Both the position numbers and the translations under genes were made by a program. The notes under the pieces are model-generated. The model was not told the DNA's origin and did not search any database. It was given only the letters and a program-made list of their open reading frames with translations. This document shows, in pieces, positions 2,780 through 51,328 of a stretch of DNA of 51,398 nucleotides. Position 1 is the stretch's first letter. Each line of letters begins with the position of its first letter. Source of the DNA: Candidatus Azophilus lithoversatilis (GTDB lineage: Bacteria; Pseudomonadota; Gammaproteobacteria; Pseudomonadales; Azotimanducaceae); NCBI GenBank assembly GCA_028278675.1, contig JAQAJJ010000030.1, positions 1 to 51,398 of the forward strand, read 5' to 3'.

Positions 2780-2824
2780 GCGGCGCACACTCTTCTCGTC
2801 GATCTGAGGCATCGCCTCGTTAGA
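2780..2824 (-). repeat. Repeat family A, partial copy 1
   Basis: Read on the minus strand the sequence begins CTAACGAGGCGATGCCTC, containing the dyad GAGGC-GAT-GCCTC, and continues through CAGATCGACGAGAAG. It matches the first 45 or so bases of the fuller copies near 21.05, 25.72 and 37.2 kb; beyond that, similarity fades. It lies between the GNAT gene and vapB, oriented like vapB. The rest of the 2655-2779 gap shows nothing recognisable. Confidence 0.55.
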
Positions 2825-21049: not shown

Positions 21050-21140
21050 CTAACGAGGCAATGCCTCAGACCAACGAAAAGGCGGTCGCCGGGTACAAGA
21101 GTTGACTCATTTGGCAACCTTCCCCCGCGATAAGGAAGAA
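21050..21140 (+). repeat. Repeat family A, copy 2
   Basis: The copy begins CTAACGAGGCAATGCCTC, with the perfect dyad GAGGC-AAT-GCCTC, continues through GGCGGTCGCCGGG and GTTGACTCATTTGGCAACC, and ends near CCCGCGATAAGG. It aligns without gaps for about 90 bases with the copy inside the helicase gene at 25721. It sits immediately before the ribosome-binding site of the aldolase gene, in the same orientation, so it forms most of the leader or promoter region of that gene. Confidence 0.75.
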
Positions 21141-21156
21141 AAACCAGGAGTGTCCA

Positions 21157-21948
21157 GTGCGTTCAAACAAGGCTTTGGCGGCGTGGCGCAACGGCGAACG
21201 GACCATCGGCCTGTGGCTGTCCCTGGCCAACGTTCATAGCGCCGAGACCTTGGCTGGCCTCGGTTTCGATTGGGTCTGCATCGACCTGCAGCACGGCCTG
21301 CTCGACTACAAGGACCTCACCGCCATGCTGCCGGCCATTTCCGCCAGCGACGCGACCCCCTTGGTGCGGGTGCCTTGGAATGAGCCCTACGAAATCATGA
21401 AGGCCCTCGATGCCGGTGCCTACGGTGTGATCGTGCCGATGATCAACAACCGGGCCGAAGCCGAGCAGGCGGTGGCCGCCTGCCGTTACCCGCCGCAGGG
21501 CAATCGCTCATTCGGGCCTATTCGTGCCGCGCTTTACGGCGGTCGCGGCTACGCAAAGGAGGCCAACGGCGAGATCGCCTGCATCGCCATGATTGAGACG
21601 GCGGAAGGCGTTGGGAAGGTGGAGGAGATCGTAACGACCCCAGGTCTCGACGGCGTGTACATCGGCCCCTCGGATCTGGCCTTGTCCTTGGGACTGGTGC
21701 CGAGGGGCGACAACGATGATCCCGTCCATGCGGCAACCGTTGAGCGCATTCGGGATGCCTGCCAACGCCATGGCGTGGCCGTCGGCATCCATACGGGGGG
21801 CTTGGAGTATACGAAACGCTACCTCGACCTCGGCTTCAACTTCGTCACGCTGGGCTCGGACATAGGCTTCATGGTCCGCACCGCAGCGGGCGATTTGGCC
21901 GCGGTTCGGGGCACGATGGAAGAGCAACGCGAAAAGACCGGCTACTGA
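21157..21948 (+). CDS. HpcH/HpaI family aldolase
   Basis: A 263-residue class II pyruvate-type aldolase, related to 4-hydroxy-2-oxoheptanedioate aldolase, which splits 4-hydroxy-2-oxoacids into pyruvate and an aldehyde. The signatures are FDWVCIDLQHGLLD, the Arg in PLVRVPWNEP, the metal-binding Glu in AMIETAEGVGKVEEI and the Asp in GVYIGPSDLALSLG. It begins with GTG 21157 after CAGGAG. The enoyl-CoA hydratase gene follows 16 bases later, so the two are likely co-transcribed. The promoter region is repeat A. Confidence 0.92.
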   Translation: MRSNKALAAWRNGERTIGLWLSLANVHSAETLAGLGFDWVCIDLQHGLLDYKDLTAMLPAISASDATPLVRVPWNEPYEIMKALDAGAYGVIVPMINNRAEAEQAVAACRYPPQGNRSFGPIRAALYGGRGYAKEANGEIACIAMIETAEGVGKVEEIVTTPGLDGVYIGPSDLALSLGLVPRGDNDDPVHAATVERIRDACQRHGVAVGIHTGGLEYTKRYLDLGFNFVTLGSDIGFMVRTAAGDLAAVRGTMEEQREKTGY

Positions 21949-23255: not shown

Positions 23256-24881
23256 ATGTCGTCCGCCGCGCCTCCTGCTCCTTCGCTGCGCCCCGGCGAA
23301 CCGCCGCCGCCTGACTACTACCGCGACAATCTACTGCGCTTGGCCCGCTTTGTCATGACCGAGCACTTCGACCTGTTGATGCCGGAGGACGAGCGCTGCC
23401 TATCCGCGATACTGGCAGCGAACAAACCCGCGCAGCGCCTTTTCGCCCGTTTGATCACCCGCAAGGGGCCTCTGCTGCGCGCCGACCGGCTCAGCTACGC
23501 CGAAGTGGCGGACCCAATGCCAGCGCTCGAAGCCTTGGCAGACGCCGGGCTTGTGCATTTGAATCCCGAGGCGCCGGCGGGCGAGCTGCTCGCGTTGCTC
23601 ACCCGGGATGAACTCCGTAGCCGATTCAAGGCGGCCGACCGTCCCAAGCCGGAACTGATTGAGGCAATCGTCGAACGTCATGCCGAGCCTTGGATTCGCG
23701 CCGCAGTGAAGGCGCAGTCCCACTGGTTGGCGGTGGCCTGTTGGCCTGGCTTGAAGCTGGCCCAATTGCTCTTTTTTGGCGATGGCCATCGAGATCTGAG
23801 CGTGTTGGTGCTCGAAGATCTGGGTTGGCGGCGCTATGAGGACTACGCCATCACCTCGGATCGGCGCCTGTTCAGGGACCGGGACGAAATTGACCGCTAC
23901 CTGCGCGCCCGACTGCTGAATGAGGCCACCCACAACTTGGATCAACTGCCGGGAATGGCCCATCCGCTGTCCAAGGCGCTGGTGGCGTGCTCCGCTCCGC
24001 CCTCCCGTTTGGAGGAGAAAACCCTGAATCGGGCGCGCAATCGCTTGGGACGCTGGTTTGAGCGGGCAGGCGAGTGGCAGGCTGCCCTCGGCTGCTACGC
24101 GGCTTCGACAGCCCATCCGGCGCGGGAGCGGCAGGTGCGGATCCTGCGCCGCATCGGTGAGGAACAAGCCGCCGAGGGCCTGCTGCGCACCATCGCACAG
24201 GCGCCGGTGTGCGCCGAGGAAGCTGATTTTGCAGTTCGATTCGACCAGCGGAGAAAACGCTGTGCGCCGAAGACCACGACCAAAGCCCTCGGGTTGGCAG
24301 GGACGGATCGGATTGAACGGCACGCCATGAAGCTGCTCGCCACCGAGGGAGGCGAGGCTTGGCATCTGGAAAACCACCTGCCTCGCGGGCTGGCCGGCCT
24401 CGTCTTTTGGGAGGTGATGTTCGCGCCGGTGGCCGGAGTCTTCCTCAACCCCTACCAAGACGCGCCGCTGGATCTCCACTGGCAGGATTTCGCTGCAACC
24501 CGCGCCGAGGCCATCACCGCGCAAAAGGAGCGCTTGGCCAACCCAGCGCAGTTTGCGGAAACGCTGCGCCGCACTCTGCGAACCAAGGTGGGGATTGCTA
24601 ACCGACTGGTCAGTTGGCGTCACTGGGACGGCTACCTGATTGAACGGTTGCTCGAAACAGTCCCCCACAACGTTTTGCTCGGGCTGGCCTGCCGTGTCAT
24701 CGGCAATCCGGGGGCCACGCGGACCGGATTTCCCGATCTGTTGGTCCTCTACGGCGCCCAGGACTACGAATTCGTCGAGGTCAAGGGGCCGACGGACGGC
24801 CTGCAGCCGGCCCAACGCCAGTGGTTCGACTACTTGGAAGGCAACGGCTTCAAAGCCAGGGTGCTGAAATTCAAAGCTTGA
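23256..24881 (+). CDS. VRR-NUC domain protein (bacterial FAN1-like nuclease)
   Basis: A 541-residue protein. The C-terminal VRR-NUC fold carries the PD-(D/E)XK core near residues 490-515: TGFPDLLVLYG, then YEFVEVKGPTDGL and LQPAQRQWFDYL. The N-terminal four fifths contain helical regions as in bacterial FAN1 relatives, including a stretch near residue 75 that resembles a DNA-binding SAP-type region (LLALLTRDELRSRFKA). FAN1 enzymes cut flaps and interstrand crosslinks; here that is inferred. The gene is coupled to the helicase gene that follows, with TTGA shared between start and stop. The ATG is 15 bases from the divergent gene. Confidence 0.85.
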   Translation: MSSAAPPAPSLRPGEPPPPDYYRDNLLRLARFVMTEHFDLLMPEDERCLSAILAANKPAQRLFARLITRKGPLLRADRLSYAEVADPMPALEALADAGLVHLNPEAPAGELLALLTRDELRSRFKAADRPKPELIEAIVERHAEPWIRAAVKAQSHWLAVACWPGLKLAQLLFFGDGHRDLSVLVLEDLGWRRYEDYAITSDRRLFRDRDEIDRYLRARLLNEATHNLDQLPGMAHPLSKALVACSAPPSRLEEKTLNRARNRLGRWFERAGEWQAALGCYAASTAHPARERQVRILRRIGEEQAAEGLLRTIAQAPVCAEEADFAVRFDQRRKRCAPKTTTKALGLAGTDRIERHAMKLLATEGGEAWHLENHLPRGLAGLVFWEVMFAPVAGVFLNPYQDAPLDLHWQDFAATRAEAITAQKERLANPAQFAETLRRTLRTKVGIANRLVSWRHWDGYLIERLLETVPHNVLLGLACRVIGNPGATRTGFPDLLVLYGAQDYEFVEVKGPTDGLQPAQRQWFDYLEGNGFKARVLKFKA

Positions 24882-27287
24882 ATTCCCAACAACTTCCGGT
24901 CCGCTGGCTGGCGGAGCAGGTCCATCGCGTCGGTGACCTTTACGCCTATCGGAGTGCGCCGACCCAAGGCGCCGAGGGCATCGCCACCCAACGCCGCTTG
25001 CAGAAGGACCGGCCAGACGGCTACCAAGTCGAGCTGGCAGTGCAAATGGACGTCAGTCTCGAAGGCGCGCGTTTCGAGCTTCGCGGACGGGTGGACGGCG
25101 TCAACCTCGATGCGGTGCCCGCCGTCGTCGAGGAGTTCAAGACCACGCGGGCGGATCCGGAACTGGCGCATCGACACGACGGCCCGGTGCATTGGGCTCA
25201 GGCCCGCCTCTATGCCGCCATGCTGGCTGCGGCGCACCCGAACCTGCGTGACTGGCATTTGCGCCTGCTGTATTGCCATCCGGACGACGTTCGGGTCCGG
25301 GTCTTCGAAGAGCGGCAAAGCGCCGCCGCTCTGAAGGCCTTTCTGGACGACACCTTAAACCGTTTCGCTGCCCGCATGGGGCAGTGGCGGGAGCACCAAG
25401 CGGCCCGCAATGCGTGGCTGGCGGAGCGGGACTTCCCCTACCCGCGCTACCGGCCCCATCAGCGCGCCGCAGCGCGGCGCTGCTACCAAGCCCTGCGGGC
25501 GGCGGAACCCCTTTTGCTCGAAGCGCCGACCGGCAGTGGCAAGAGCATGGCGGTGCTCTACGCGGCGCTGAAGAGCCTGCCGCAAACGGACGCATCGAAG
25601 CTGATCTTCCTAACCAGCCGCGGCACCGGTGCCGCCGCCGCCGAGGCGGCCTTGGATCGCATCGACGCCGCGTCCGGGCACATCCGCCGCATCACCTTGG
25701 CGGCGAAGGAGAAGCAGTGCCTAATGAGGCAATCCCCCAGACCGGCGGATGGGCGGTCGCAGGGCGCAAAAGGTGGCTTAAGTGGCAACCTGGACCCGCA
25801 ATCAGGAGAAAGAGCACAGGAAATGCCTTGTTCGGCGGACCAGTGCCCTTACGCCAAGGGCTATTTCGACAAGCGGCCCGACGCCGAGGCGGCGCTGCTC
25901 ACCGACCCGGCCATTACGCCCGAGCGGATCCGCGAAGTCGGGCGCAACCACGAAGTGTGCCCCTACGAACTGTCCTTGGACACCGCGCTCTGGTCCGATG
26001 TGGTGATCGGCGACTACAACTACGTCTTCGACCCCGTGGTCCGCCTGCGGCGCTTTGCCGACGGCAAGGACATCGACTTGCTGATCGATGAGGCCCACCA
26101 GTTGAGCGACCGTGCTGAGGAATCGTTGTCGGTTGTGCTCCGCCGCAGCGTATTCAAGGCGGCACTGACCGAACCGCTGCCGAAGCTGCTGGCCAAGCGC
26201 CTGCGCGCCATCGACCGTGCCCTGACCGCGTTGCGCCGCCAGCATGGCCATCCCGAGGAGGCCGTCATCGAGCGGCCGGCGGCGCTCACCCGCGCCGTTG
26301 AACGCTTCTCCGAGGCCCTGTTCAGCGATGAGGCGGCACTGGATGCCTTGCCGCGAACCCAAGCGGCCGCCTGGTCAGCCAATCGTTGGCAGAAGGGCGA
26401 ATCCTGGTGGCGTCCGCAGGCCTTTGTCCACTTGCTGCGCACCGACCGTTCCGACGTCACGGTGGCGCTGCGCTGCCTCGACGCCAGCGAGCACTTGAAG
26501 GAGAGCTTCGCCCGCTATCGAAGCAGCATCCTTTTTTCGGGAACCCTGTCGCCACGCCCTGCACGGCTTGGACCAAGCGCCCGCCGAACGGGCCGGCAGC
26601 CCGTTCGATTCCGAACAGGTCGCCGTGCTGCTCGTTACCGACATCAATACCTACTTCAACGGCCGACAGGCGTCCATGGCGCAGGTCGTCGATCTGGTTC
26701 AGGCGGTGGTGGAGGCTCATCCCGGGCACTACCTCCTGGCGTTTCCGTCCTATGGTTACCTCGGTGGCTTTGCCGAGGCCGTAACGGGACGCCTGGATGG
26801 ATTCCGCCTGCACTGCCAGGTGCCTGACATGGCGGATGGCCAGCGCACGGATTTCCTGAACGCCTTTGCCCACAGCGCTCCTCCTGCTTTGGCGGCCATC
26901 GTGCTCGGTGGCGTCTTTGCTGAATCGGTGGATTTCGCCGCCGCGCCGCTCCGCGGAGTGTTGGCCATCGGTGCCGGCTTGCCACCACCGACCTTGGCGC
27001 GAGCGAGCAAGGCGCGCTACTTCGACGCCAAATCCGGCAACGGCGTGGAAGTGGCGTACCGCCAGCCAGCCATGACCAAGGTGGCGCAGGTCGCTGGCCG
27101 CTTGCTGCGCTCGCCCAAGGACCGGGGCGTGATCTGCCTGATCGATCCACGCTTTGGCCACGAAGGCCATCAGCGTTTTTTTCCCAGCCACTGGCGTCCG
27201 CAAAAGGTGCCGGCCCGGCATGTGGGCACCACAGTGGCGAAGTTCTGGCAACAGCCGTGGCAAGCGCCTATCCTCTATGAGGAATAG
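24878..27287 (+). pseudogene. Nuclease-helicase of the DinG/Rad3 type, frameshifted and carrying an inserted repeat
   Basis: An Fe-S superfamily 2 helicase with an N-terminal PD-(D/E)XK domain (GRVDGVNLDAVPAVVEEFKTT, residues about 70-90). Walker A is EAPTGSGKS (about 217), DEAH is LLIDEAHQLSD (about 400), and Fe-S cysteines are seen in KQC, PCSADQCPY and HEVCPYE. Reading starts at TTG 24878, coupled to the VRR-NUC stop. Two lesions are visible. A 105-base in-frame insert of repeat A (25721-25825) lies between the first and second Fe-S cysteines. A frame change near 26553, just after FSGTLSP (motif IV/V region), leaves the C-terminal helicase half (from ALHGLDQAP) in another frame to 27287. 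It may be inactive, expressed by frameshifting, or a sequencing error. Confidence 0.75.
25721..25825 (+). repeat. Repeat family A, copy 3, in frame inside the helicase gene
   Basis: This 105-base segment begins CTAATGAGGCAAT and contains GGCGGTCGCAGGG, then TGGCAACCTGG and CCCGCAATCAGGAG. It aligns base for base with copy 2. It is a multiple of three and free of stops in the helicase frame, adding 35 residues (from LMRQSP to AQEM) between Fe-S cysteines that are normally much closer. The arm of the dyad has decayed (CCCCC for GCCTC). Confidence 0.75.
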
Positions 27288-28812: not shown

Positions 28813-28905
28813 TAGTGTCCCGCAAATAAGTGGGTTTTAGGCGCTGGGCCGTTTGGGTTCCCGTGCAAGGGCCTTTCCGTTGCCGGAAAGGGCGACAACG
28901 CGGTG
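28813..28905 (+). repeat. Repeat family D, copy 1
   Basis: Begins TAGTGTCCCGCAAATAAG and contains GGCCGTTTGGGTTCCC and a CCTTTCCG-TTGC-CGGAAAGG hairpin, ending at GACAACGCGGTG. It matches 51231-51328 apart from a 5-base indel and a few substitutions. It lies between pyk and the TauE gene. No transposase is visible. Confidence 0.75.
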
Positions 28906-29814: not shown

Positions 29815-29871
29815 TTCGAGTAAAGTCGGTCGGTTACGTTGCGCAAGTCTAGTGAAGATGCTGCTGTGCTT

Positions 29872-30045
29872 CCACCCTACAAACGGAGACAGGTTAGTGA
29901 CTGGCCGGTCGTTCCTTCGGCGTCAGCGGCGCGCCATTCCTGGGCAAGCTGAAGGCTCCCACCCTACAAACGGAGACAGGTTAGTGACTGGCCGGTCGTT
30001 CCTTCGGCGCCAGCGGTGCGCTGCGCTGGGGCGAGTTAGGGGCTT
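29872..30045 (+). repeat. Repeat family C: tandem pair of 87-base units
   Basis: Two units with period 87 start at 29872 and 29959. Each contains CCACCCTACAAACGGAGAC, AGGTTAGTGACTGGCCGGTC and GTTCCTTCGGCG. Unit 1 is related to unit 2 by few substitutions until about 30020. Because 87 is a multiple of three, both GTG codons (29897 and 29984) are in the MORN gene frame. A related pair lies at 40315-40489. Confidence 0.75.
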
Positions 30046-30931
30046 TCAGGCGGCCTGCGTCTTGATTCTGATTGCCCTCGCCGCCGTGGCGCAGGCTCGT
30101 TCGATCCAGCTTGACAACGGCGACGTCTACGAAGGCGACTTGGTGGACGGTCTGCGCACCGGCAAAGGCGTTTACGTCTGGGCCAGCGGCAACCGCTACG
30201 AAGGCGAGTTCGTCGCCAACCAGATGCAGGGGCAGGGCAACTACACATGGGTCGATGGGCGCACCTACTCGGGCGAGTTCGTCGCCGACAGGCGTCACGG
30301 CGAAGGCGTGTTGACTTGGAGCAACGGCAACCGCTACGAAGGTCAATTCGAAGGCGATCGGATGCATGGCCAAGGCGTCTTCGCATGGAGCAACGGGGAC
30401 CGCTATGAGGGCACCTTCGTACGCGGCCGGCGCAGCGGACTCGGACGGTTCGACTGGGTCTCGGGCGACGGCTACGCGGGCCAATTCGTAAATGGCGAAC
30501 TGCATGGGCAGGGCCTGTTCACCTGGCCCAACGGCAATCGCTACCAAGGTGGCTTTGCGAACGACCAGCGCCATGGTTTGGGGGTGTTTCATTGGCGCGA
30601 CGGCACGATATTCCGCGGCCGGTTTCGAGCCAACAGGATGCATGGCCACGGCGTCAAGGAGCAGCCCGATGGAACCATGGAGCTGCAGCAGTGGACGGAC
30701 GGGCGGCTGCGGACGAGCAGGCCCCTGGTCGAGGACGAGCGCTGCCGCCTGCGTCTCCGGGACCGCTACTGGATGTTCACCAGCGAAAGCTGCGTAAACG
30801 GCTTGGCCCATGGCCGCGGGCGGGCCACCAGCTTGGATGGGGAACTGATCATCGCCGACGGCTACTTCGTGCTCGGCCACTTAGTGACGGGTGAGGCGCA
30901 GCCGATCTGGCTGCGCAGCCCTGTGCAGTGA
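29984..30931 (+). CDS. Exported MORN-repeat protein
   Basis: A 315-residue protein with an N-terminal signal-like segment (FQAACVLILIALAAVAQA, residues about 20-37) followed by eight MORN repeats of 23 residues (pattern YEGxFVxxxxHGxGVxxWxNGxR) over residues 45-225. A C-terminal domain of about 90 residues has two cysteines (DERCRL and SESCVNG). MORN proteins bind lipids or serve as scaffolds in some systems. The start GTG 29984 and its GGAGACAGG ribosome-binding site lie in the second repeat C unit; an earlier in-frame GTG (29897) would add 29 repeat-encoded residues. The stop overlaps the next gene (GTGA). Confidence 0.8.
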   Translation: MTGRSFLRRQRCAALGRVRGFQAACVLILIALAAVAQARSIQLDNGDVYEGDLVDGLRTGKGVYVWASGNRYEGEFVANQMQGQGNYTWVDGRTYSGEFVADRRHGEGVLTWSNGNRYEGQFEGDRMHGQGVFAWSNGDRYEGTFVRGRRSGLGRFDWVSGDGYAGQFVNGELHGQGLFTWPNGNRYQGGFANDQRHGLGVFHWRDGTIFRGRFRANRMHGHGVKEQPDGTMELQQWTDGRLRTSRPLVEDERCRLRLRDRYWMFTSESCVNGLAHGRGRATSLDGELIIADGYFVLGHLVTGEAQPIWLRSPVQ

Positions 30932-33114: not shown

Positions 33115-33129
33115 CCACACGGAAGTTGC

Positions 33130-33189
33130 GGAGTTTCGCGACAGCGAAGCTCCAAACGCACCCTCGGCTCCAAGGGAGGCGAGGGTGCG
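33130..33189. repeat. Repeat family B: two-hairpin element, copy 2
   Basis: Stem 1 pairs GGAGTTTCGC with GCGAAGCTCC around a GACA loop (33130-33153). Stem 2 pairs CGCACCCTCG (33157-33166) with CGAGGGTGCG (33180-33189). It is located directly after the pseudokinase gene and before the metallo-hydrolase gene. The stem 2 sequence is unlike the other copies, but fully paired. Confidence 0.75.
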
Positions 33190-37105: not shown

Positions 37106-37203
37106 CTCCTAGTGTTCTTGATCGCGGGAATAGGTTGTCACATGAGTCAACTTTTGCGCCCGCCGACCGCCCGCTCTTCGTTCAGAGGCGTTTGCCTCGT
37201 TTG
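37106..37203 (-). repeat. Repeat family A, copy 4
   Basis: On the minus strand it starts AACGAGGCAAACGCCTC, giving the dyad GAGGC...GCCTC, then GGGCGGTCGGCGGGC, GTTGACTCATGTGACAACC and CCCGCGATCAAG. It ends before the AGGAGG of the response regulator gene. The two best copies (2 and 4) share the GTTG-N10-CAAC dyad. It fills part of the 37093-37374 gap. Confidence 0.7.
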
Positions 37204-40283: not shown

Positions 40284-40314
40284 AGATGCCTCCTCTCCGA
40301 TGAATTCGAGTCTA

Positions 40315-40489
40315 CCATTGAACAAGTGGAGACAACCCAGCGGCTGGCCGGTTGCTCCTCCGGCGTCAACGGCGTGCCGTTCTGGGGCAAGCTAAGGGCT
40401 TTCATGGAACAATGGGAGACGGCCCCGCCGCGGCCCGGTTGTCCCTTCGATGTCAGCAGCGCGTCGCACTTCGACGAGCTGATGGCTTA
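40315..40489 (+). repeat. Repeat family C: second tandem pair
   Basis: Unit 1 (40315-40403) contains GGAGACAACCCAGCGGCTGG and GGCCGGTTGCTCCTCCGGCG and resembles the pair at 29.9 kb. Unit 2 (40404-40489) contains GGGAGACGGCCCCGCCGC and is more diverged. It fills the space between the TonB receptor and the sirtuin gene; both of those genes are on the minus strand. Confidence 0.6.
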
Positions 40490-41330: not shown

Positions 41331-41466
41331 ATCTGTCCCACTCAACGGGTGGGGAGTTTCGCGTCAGCGAAACTCCATACGCGACCGTCAGGTCTCGCAT
41401 CTGTCCCGCCCAACGGGTGTGGAGTTTCGCGTCAGCGAAACTCCATACGCGACCGTCAGGTCGCGC
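41331..41466. repeat. Repeat family B: tandem pair of 68-base units, copies 4 and 5
   Basis: Two units (41331-41398, 41399-41466) each read ATCTGTCCC, CAACGGGTG, then stem 1 GGAGTTTCGC-GTCA-GCGAAACTCC and stem 2 GCGACC-GTCA-GGTCKCGC. They differ at few positions. They fill the space between the divergent sirtuin and nucleoside transporter genes. There is no spacer diversity and no cas gene, so it is not a CRISPR array. Confidence 0.85.
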
Positions 41467-48893: not shown

Positions 48894-48973
48894 ATCCCGA
48901 ATGGTCAACAACCCAGTGTCCACCAGAATTTTGATCCCGAATGGTCAACAACCCAGTGTCCACCAGAGTTTTG
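48894..48973. repeat. Tandem direct repeat of 40 bases
   Basis: Two units (48894-48933, 48934-48973) each begin ATCCCGAATGGTCAACAACC and end CCAGARTTTTG, differing at one base. The second unit runs into the two-hairpin element of family B. It lies in the divergent gap between the MFS transporter and acyl-CoA dehydrogenase genes. Confidence 0.85.
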
Positions 48974-51233: not shown

Positions 51234-51328
51234 TGTCCTGTCCCGTAAGTAAGTTGGTTTTAGTCGCTAGGCCGTTTGGGTTCCCGTGCAAGGGCCTTCC
51301 CGTTACCGGAAAGGGCGACAACGCGGTG
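51231..51328 (+). repeat. Repeat family D, copy 2
   Basis: Matches 28813-28905 from TAGTGTCC through GCCGTTTGGGTTCCCGTGC to GACAACGCGGTG, with a 5-base duplication (TGTCC) near the start. The rmlA stop codon TAG is its first triplet. The remaining bases to the window end show a possible GCGAGG...CCTCGC hairpin. Confidence 0.75.

Follow-up and report, generated by a model that had tools for sequence, protein, structure and literature searches.

A dispersed and probably mobile 94-nt repeat stands in frame in a helicase gene and in other protein genes of Candidatus Azophilus lithoversatilis

The DNA analysed here, referred to as the window, is a stretch of 51,398 nucleotides (nt) of contig JAQAJJ010000030.1 in assembly GCA_028278675.1 of Candidatus Azophilus lithoversatilis (Gammaproteobacteria; Azotimanducaceae). 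Positions 25721–25814 of its + strand, which lie in a helicase gene, very probably represent one copy of a genus-specific, non-autonomous mobile element of 94 nt that inserts at CTAG or near-CTAG, in a gene that is probably decaying by a separate deletion. The repeat is dispersed through the genome, empty sites exist in relatives, the net gain at filled sites is usually 90 nt, open frames run through copies in several protein genes, and one insertion is common to two species. The genome of the window (G000; 3.77 Mb, 104 contigs) was compared with other genomes of the genus (G001–G008), and L-numbers denote stretches taken from the genomes (L013, for example, belongs to G001). Judging from isolate names only, the genus appears to be sponge-associated.

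Copies, distribution and structure of the repeat

A BLAST search of G000 with the segment gave 40 matches, the best of which, apart from the segment itself, showed 83% identity over 86 nt (E-value = 8.7e-19). R1, a sequence-only model of the repeat built from 34 copies including the one in the helicase gene, gave 158 matches in G000 at E ≤ 10; the best 150, down to E = 0.0014, were listed, and merging the pieces among them left about 142 copies. The initial annotation had reckoned with four segments, whereas four is the number in the window alone, one of them truncated: the copies beginning at 21050 and 25721 on the + strand and at 37203 and 2823 on the - strand. The copy at 21050–21143 (+) is intergenic, upstream of a gene at 21157, and so is that at 37108–37203 (-), while the truncated copy at 2781–2823 (-) comprises the 5' half and is followed by the remnant of an extra hairpin like that of the long form. 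The likeness between the helicase copy and the intergenic repeat at 21050–21140, pointed out in the initial annotation, is real: BLAST aligned the two with 75% identity over 93 nt (E-value = 1.2e-11) and one gap, and in a MAFFT alignment of the 34 copies the two rows are gapped in identical columns, so that they are gapless to each other, as had been claimed.

The annotation had also proposed looking for the element in the rest of this genome and in relatives, and it is present in both. At E ≤ 0.01, matches were found in eight of the nine genomes of the genus, G000 included (40 to 113 matches in five genomes and 5 to 8 in three), and in none of G003; outside the genus, one of 29 genomes gave a single weak match. 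In a second draw of genomes with stricter filters (E ≤ 1e-4), all four genomes of the genus had matches, and among 77 others there was one, again with a single weak match. Diverged subfamilies of the element exist in G001, G005 and G006. Among the open-licence titles surveyed, none dealt with the element or with in-frame repeats in this group, which is no proof of absence.

The short form measures 94 nt, from CTA to CTAG (CTAACGAGGCGATGCCTCAGACC...CCCGCGATCAAGAAAACTAG), and of the six reading frames of its consensus two are free of stops, one sense (LTRRCLRPTSGRSPGAKVDSCGNLVPRSRKL) and one antisense. Longer forms of ~115 nt and ~136 nt contain one or two additional central hairpins, and in the ~136-nt forms one of the two shows a few compensatory changes. 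The initial annotation described the element as palindromic, a description that has to be given up: the 94-nt unit is not palindromic over most of its length, no terminal inverted repeat was found, and just a 5-bp hairpin near the 5' end (GAGGC-GCCTC) gains modest covariation support, once copies of other genus members are added. The other pairs tested in the 94-nt form, with a hand-made model of three helices, showed no covariation beyond shuffles within G000. RNAalifold proposed 10 pairs for this form, one of them with a both-sided change, and single-strand folds of six copies gave z-scores of -1.6 to 0.5. A candidate hairpin at the right end was rejected for want of support. In L153, downstream of the copy at G000:C18:51138-51231, there are tandem copies of the 3' end of the element only (TCCGCAATCAAGAGCACTAA, TCCGCGATCAAGAAAACTAA), and a similar arrangement occurs in L138.

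Empty sites, host genes and persistence

Orthologous sites were sought with the flanks of 16 copies in the near relatives G002, G004, G007 and G008, and the helicase, P450 and CsiV sites were joined to the counts from separate alignments. The counts leave out rows that hold the element wholly or in part (L306, L307, L310, L311 and L326), rows from a genome already represented (L308, L309 and L327) and poorly aligned MlaC rows (L316 and L317), and copy #35, in a hydrolase gene, had no orthologous site in the relatives. At six in-gene sites (helicase, cytochrome P450, the second copy in CsiV, sulfotransferase, ExbB and KdsC), the length difference from the filled allele is divisible by three in all 20 empty alleles, taken one per genome (90 nt in 18, 72 nt in one and 93 nt in one). 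The net gain is 90 nt against 4/4, 3/4 and 4/4 relatives for the helicase, P450 and CsiV, and against 3/3, 2/3 and 2/2 empty genomes for the sulfotransferase, ExbB and KdsC, respectively. In contrast to this, only four of the 29 empty alleles at 11 other sites differ by a multiple of three. Because the in-gene sites were picked for open frames, this contrast is expected if frame-breaking landings were removed, and it is not in itself a measure of selection.

The empty allele reads CTAG in both relatives at copy #44 and in two of four at copy #18 (CTAA and CTGG in the others), and CTTG, CTGG and TTGG were also found at empty junctions, while the junction was not clean at a number of intergenic sites, #9, #56 and #58 among them. 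No clear target motif beyond CTAG was seen in the flanks of 51 copies, which would speak against long-target systems such as IS110. The flanking triplets of the copies agree marginally (p = 0.055), and a TA duplication is not separable from shared element ends. The P450 gene of G007 (L211) has an in-frame hairpin insertion of its own, 18 nt long (GCGCCGCCTGGGCGGCGG), near the site of the element in the G000 P450.

These empty orthologous sites, many with exact steps of 90 nt, contradict the idea that the repeat arose over and over as a functional RNA or a regulatory DNA motif, the helicase copy being incidental. Some inner blocks are better conserved than the ends, the extra hairpins of the long forms show some compensatory changes, and many copies adjoin genes, all of which such a motif might display. 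However, the copies occur in both orientations relative to the neighbouring genes, the 94-nt form lacks covariation beyond shuffles in G000, and Rfam gave no match, either for the window at gathering scores or for four loci at E ≤ 1. We therefore regard a functional motif as very improbable.

The helicase open reading frame (ORF) encodes an Fe-S helicase resembling XPD and DinG, which has a PD-(D/E)XK domain at its N-terminus; among solved structures, the relative with the best score is 9kqh, a DNA 5'-3' helicase. Its N-terminal part (24878–26566, +; start codon uncertain) comprises nuclease-like PD-(D/E)XK, DEAD and DEAD_2/Fe-S regions, and the element copy reads LMRQSPRPADGRSQGAKGGLSGNLDPQSGER in its frame. 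Among 28 aligned homologues, cysteines C281, C323 and C361 are invariant and C318 is conserved in at least 90%; as in the XPD family, these four residues are presumably the cluster ligands. The insert follows directly after C281 (codon 25718–25720, immediately 5' of the insert) and stops before C318 (25829–25831), with C323 at 25844–25846 and C361 at 25958–25960, all on the + strand. So, the element does lie between Fe-S cysteines, as annotated, and its frame is open, although the size given for it, 105 nt and 35 residues, needs correction: the repeat measures 94 nt and the net gain over the empty orthologues is 90 nt or 30 residues in all four close relatives. These four relatives also bear out the suggestion that a mobile, dispersed element was inserted in frame in a protein gene whose close orthologues are without it.

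AlphaFold2 models, spanning the N-terminal 563 residues with the insert and 531 residues of an orthologue without it, predict the insert to be a disordered loop between the first and second Fe-S cysteines, with a predicted local distance difference test score (pLDDT) below 50 for residues 292–314. The mean pLDDT is 89.7 with the insert and 91.1 without it, and the order of helices and strands is almost the same. As the insert is modelled as a floppy loop and the rest of the fold is much alike in this comparison with and without it, which the initial annotation had proposed, it is not obviously protein-breaking; by itself it need not kill its host gene, and the loop may well be harmless. Upstream of the frameshift described below, the ratio of nonsynonymous to synonymous substitution rates (dN/dS) against L009 and L010 is 0.18 to 0.20, so the gene was constrained during most of its history. 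However, 14 nt present in both L009 and L010 are missing from the G000 gene at 26553/26554 (+), which shifts the frame and leaves the C-terminal helicase domain (Helicase_C_2; 26568–27287, +) in a different frame from the N-terminal part. Because of this separate deletion, the gene is probably decaying, or else the assembly is wrong at this point. The deletion, which splits the gene in two frames, is flanked by short CGCC repeats.

A codon-usage path model placed 137 of the 150 listed matches relative to genes. Ten of these copies lie within one continuous coding segment reaching 60 nt on each side, and eight of the ten belong to the 78 full-length short copies. The firm list omits copy #29, in the signal region of MlaC, and copy #132, at a PBP2-RodA junction, since the alignment or gene borders are doubtful; #75 and #111 are further candidates outside it. 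Family matches spanning or beside the insert identified in-frame hosts as cytochrome P450, CsiV, an alpha/beta hydrolase, a sulfotransferase and ExbB; the CsiV ORF contains two copies, only the second of which is covered by the family match, and the ExbB copy stands beside the domain. The KdsC host was recognized by its reading phase, and its name is presumed from a sequence motif. Compared with empty orthologues, dN/dS was 0.15 to 0.19 for P450, 0.27 for ExbB, 0.35 to 0.43 for the sulfotransferase and 0.60 to 0.69 for the CsiV ORF (including sequence upstream of the family match), values that span the whole divergence and not the time since insertion. In L189 (G000:C70:15791-15885), a diverged copy lies between two coding sequences, presumably PBP2-like and RodA-like, that no stop separates and that may be fused.

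Many copies are also met by genes at their borders. Of 27 same-strand genes entering full-length short copies, 17 do so in the stop phase, seven in the open frame and three in the third frame, and in 16 of these 17 cases the element does supply a stop codon (TAA in 15, TAG in one). Among 17 opposite-strand genes, eight are in the stop phase, five in the open frame and four in another; an actual TAG is found in six of the eight, and at one of the remaining two, the ExbB copy (#81), the gene reads on through the element. These counts indicate that the element frequently occupies the stop codon of a gene, so that the protein encoded upstream stays the same.

Persistence of an insert is seen in KdsC, where G000 (LTRRWLRLTHRRSPGAKVGSSGSLVPGSIKL) and G002 (LTRRWLRSTQRRSPGAKVGSYGSLVPRSIKL), two species 14% apart, have an in-frame insert of 90 nt at one common codon. 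The two inserts have 11 common departures from the consensus, a number that none of 1275 pairs of other copies reached (maximum 9), so they go back to one old insertion. Between G000 and G002, dN/dS is 0.26 for the body of KdsC and 0.62, from nine changes, for the insert. G007 and G008 are empty, while G004 (L307) has the insert with a net loss of 7 nt, so that the start of its KdsC probably falls within sequence derived from the element. Although G002 is filled and G008 is empty, without a scar, the two are sister genomes, with a support of 95 in the joined and 100 in the helicase tree. The P450 of G002 is closest to that of G007 (4.9%) and its helicase to that of G008 (0.7%) (L209–L212, L198–L201); this conflict suggests that species of the genus recombine with one another, which could account for the empty G008 allele just as well as clean excision could. 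In short, the alternatives posed in the initial annotation, tolerance of the insert or decay of the gene, both apply: the KdsC insert is in frame in two species, and the helicase has its frameshifting deletion of 14 nt.

Mode of movement and known elements

We propose that the element inserts at CTAG or near-CTAG sites in the manner C-TA-[88 nt]-TA-G, with a usual net gain of 90 nt, and would be moved by a transposase acting in trans. A landing in the codon frame CTA-G (sense) or NCT-AGN (element antisense) would add 30 sense codons, because each strand of the consensus has a single open frame, and a landing on a stop codon (C-TAG) would keep a stop, because the element begins with CTAA. Copies landing otherwise would truncate genes and mostly be lost, presumably by selection against out-of-frame landings.

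Several observations weigh against this interpretation. The two ends share one match in the first 12 positions when tested as a terminal inverted repeat, and 98.7% of shuffles did as well as the best offset or better. No autonomous partner was found in the nine genomes of the genus with PF01797 and PF13358, the sole transposase families searched. Matches to the Y1 transposase (PF01797) exist in four of the nine, with none at E ≤ 0.001 in the copy-rich G000 and G004; IS630-type matches (PF13358) exist in five of the nine, with one gene in G000, and of seven IS630-type loci examined, four show ends (GTGT/GTAC type), none of which is like the element, the ends of the G000 copy not being recognized. 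The helicase empty alleles of near relatives read CTGA or CTCA, a weaker match to a CTAG target; the frame statistics inside genes are partly circular, since the copies were picked for an open frame; and the assemblies are draft metagenome assemblies, in which errors may hide. Finally, a more distant relative, G001, has a net 66-nt insert at the same helicase codon as the G000 element (L013, 3835–3912), so that a stretch of 26 residues (from 3835) stands where L009–L012 and L014 have four.

The G001 insert raises the alternative that the helicase insertion is ancient and was cleanly lost in L009–L012 and L014. Part of the insert resembles the 5' half of the element in register (shuffle p = 0.0015 against the consensus; none of 2000 shuffles scored as high against a G006 copy), and it ranks first of 39 low-scoring R1 matches in its locus. 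However, this match reaches just 6.5 bits (E-value = 0.046, the next being 0.067), the consensus is matched at least as well by two of 379 stretches of the locus, the comparison with the helicase copy of the window gives p = 0.38, and the tree leaves the position of G000 among its relatives unsettled; an ancient insertion is accordingly quite unlikely. The initial annotation had named the same residues in orthologues of other species as evidence against an insertion: the four close relatives are without them, while G001 has an insert of its own that is weakly similar.

The similarity to the Rickettsia palindromic elements (RPEs) drawn in the initial annotation holds in part. RPEs are described in a review as short, dispersed elements that occur in frame in unrelated protein genes and are apparently tolerated (PMC10969869), and the present element likewise has many short dispersed copies, in frame in unrelated protein genes and elsewhere. 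Unlike RPEs, which are palindromic by name and ~150 bp long, it measures 94 nt, usually adds 30 codons, targets CTAG and belongs to a gammaproteobacterial genus; it does not appear to be an RPE, having no overall palindrome, no terminal inverted repeat and no matching transposase in the two families tried, and membership in the Rickettsia type is not upheld.

RUP and Correia elements are bacterial miniature inverted-repeat transposable elements (MITEs) with TA ends. Like bacterial MITEs in general, the element is small, gene-free, present in many copies and inserted into empty sites, and like the TA-ended ones it has TA at its borders and many copies near gene ends; unlike them, it lacks a terminal inverted repeat, and no matching transposon was found in searches with PF13358 and PF01797. 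The QMITE1 and QMITE2 elements of Coxiella are characterized as small non-autonomous MITEs of high copy number with TA borders, many of them near gene ends (PMC5896051). Because of the CTAAC end of the element, an integron attC site, which has paired core sites and a folded stem beside cassette genes, was also considered as a candidate and set aside.

The element might be a MITE-like derivative of IS630/Tc1-mariner, mobilized in trans by an IS630 transposase and duplicating the TA within its CTAG target. Its CTA...CTAG borders, CTAG-like empty sites, TA on both sides and the one IS630-type gene in G000 would suit this origin, and IS630 itself reportedly prefers TA in 5'-CTAG-3', according to the title of Tenzen and Ohtsubo 1991, a reference of PMC2170065. 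However, the element lacks a terminal inverted repeat and contains no transposase, its ends differ from those seen in four of the seven loci while the G000 copy showed none, no element match adjoins any of eight IS630-type loci, G008 and G005 have many copies without a PF13358 match, and the triplet agreement is marginal, so that this derivation appears rather unlikely. Insertion at TA is stated for insertion sequences of the ISY100/IS630 type (PMC2170065).

Repeats derived from IS200/IS605 and similar to repetitive extragenic palindromic (REP) sequences have no inverted repeat, a hairpin near an end and a tetranucleotide target. These traits recur in our element, which is a longer unit and has no Y1 match in G000 to go with it. 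Movement as single-stranded DNA in this manner, with subterminal hairpins, a fixed CTAG target, no duplication and clean excision, would fit the missing inverted repeat, the modestly supported hairpin near one end, the usual net gain of 90 nt and the scar-free empty KdsC allele of G008, close sister of the filled G002. A weak partial match to the element (30 nt, 12.4 bits, E-value = 0.0029) at L266 1091–1120, in a Y1 locus of G003, points the same way. We nevertheless hold this manner of movement to be doubtful, as no Y1 match occurs in G000 or G004, each of them rich in copies, G003 has two Y1 matches (one over the cut-off) but no element match at E ≤ 0.01, the second hairpin has no support, and recombination explains the G008 allele equally well. 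Tentatively, and with doubt, the non-autonomous mobile element preferred here may even belong to a class of mobile DNA that has not been described before, one that lacks inverted repeats and a known transposase, is frame-safe, targets CTAG, restores stops, can otherwise add 30 codons and can leave without a scar.

Other repeats in the window and significance

The window contains further repeats. A second family consists of 87-nt units in tandem pairs (29868–30041 and 40311–40484; 64–84% identity to the reference copy), and a third repeat of 90 nt, 92% identical, occurs at 28816–28905 and 51239–51328; a copy of the element directly adjoins the start of this third repeat in L120, and another adjoins a similar stretch in L280. 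A hairpin repeat of the type GGAGTTTCGCG...CGCGAAACTCC, partly in tandem, is found at 33127–33159 and 41331–41466. Coding repeats with a 69-nt period at 30115–30558 look like MORN repeats, and a 40-nt tandem duplication (98%) at 48894–48973 is possibly recent or an assembly artefact.

In-frame selfish DNA in working genes is best known from Rickettsia, and the review mentioned above, which is on prokaryotic MITEs, treats an RPE-like process in other prokaryotes as conceivable (PMC10969869). The present element provides an example with many copies from an unrelated genus, where orthologous empty sites in several species make the cost, persistence and loss of inserts measurable, and the KdsC copy, open in two species, offers a direct test of whether a parasite-derived stretch of 30 residues is neutral or useful. 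If it is true that the element forms a frame-safe class, it would be an independent instance, from outside the Rickettsiales, of selfish DNA placed systematically in frame, and a source of new protein loops.
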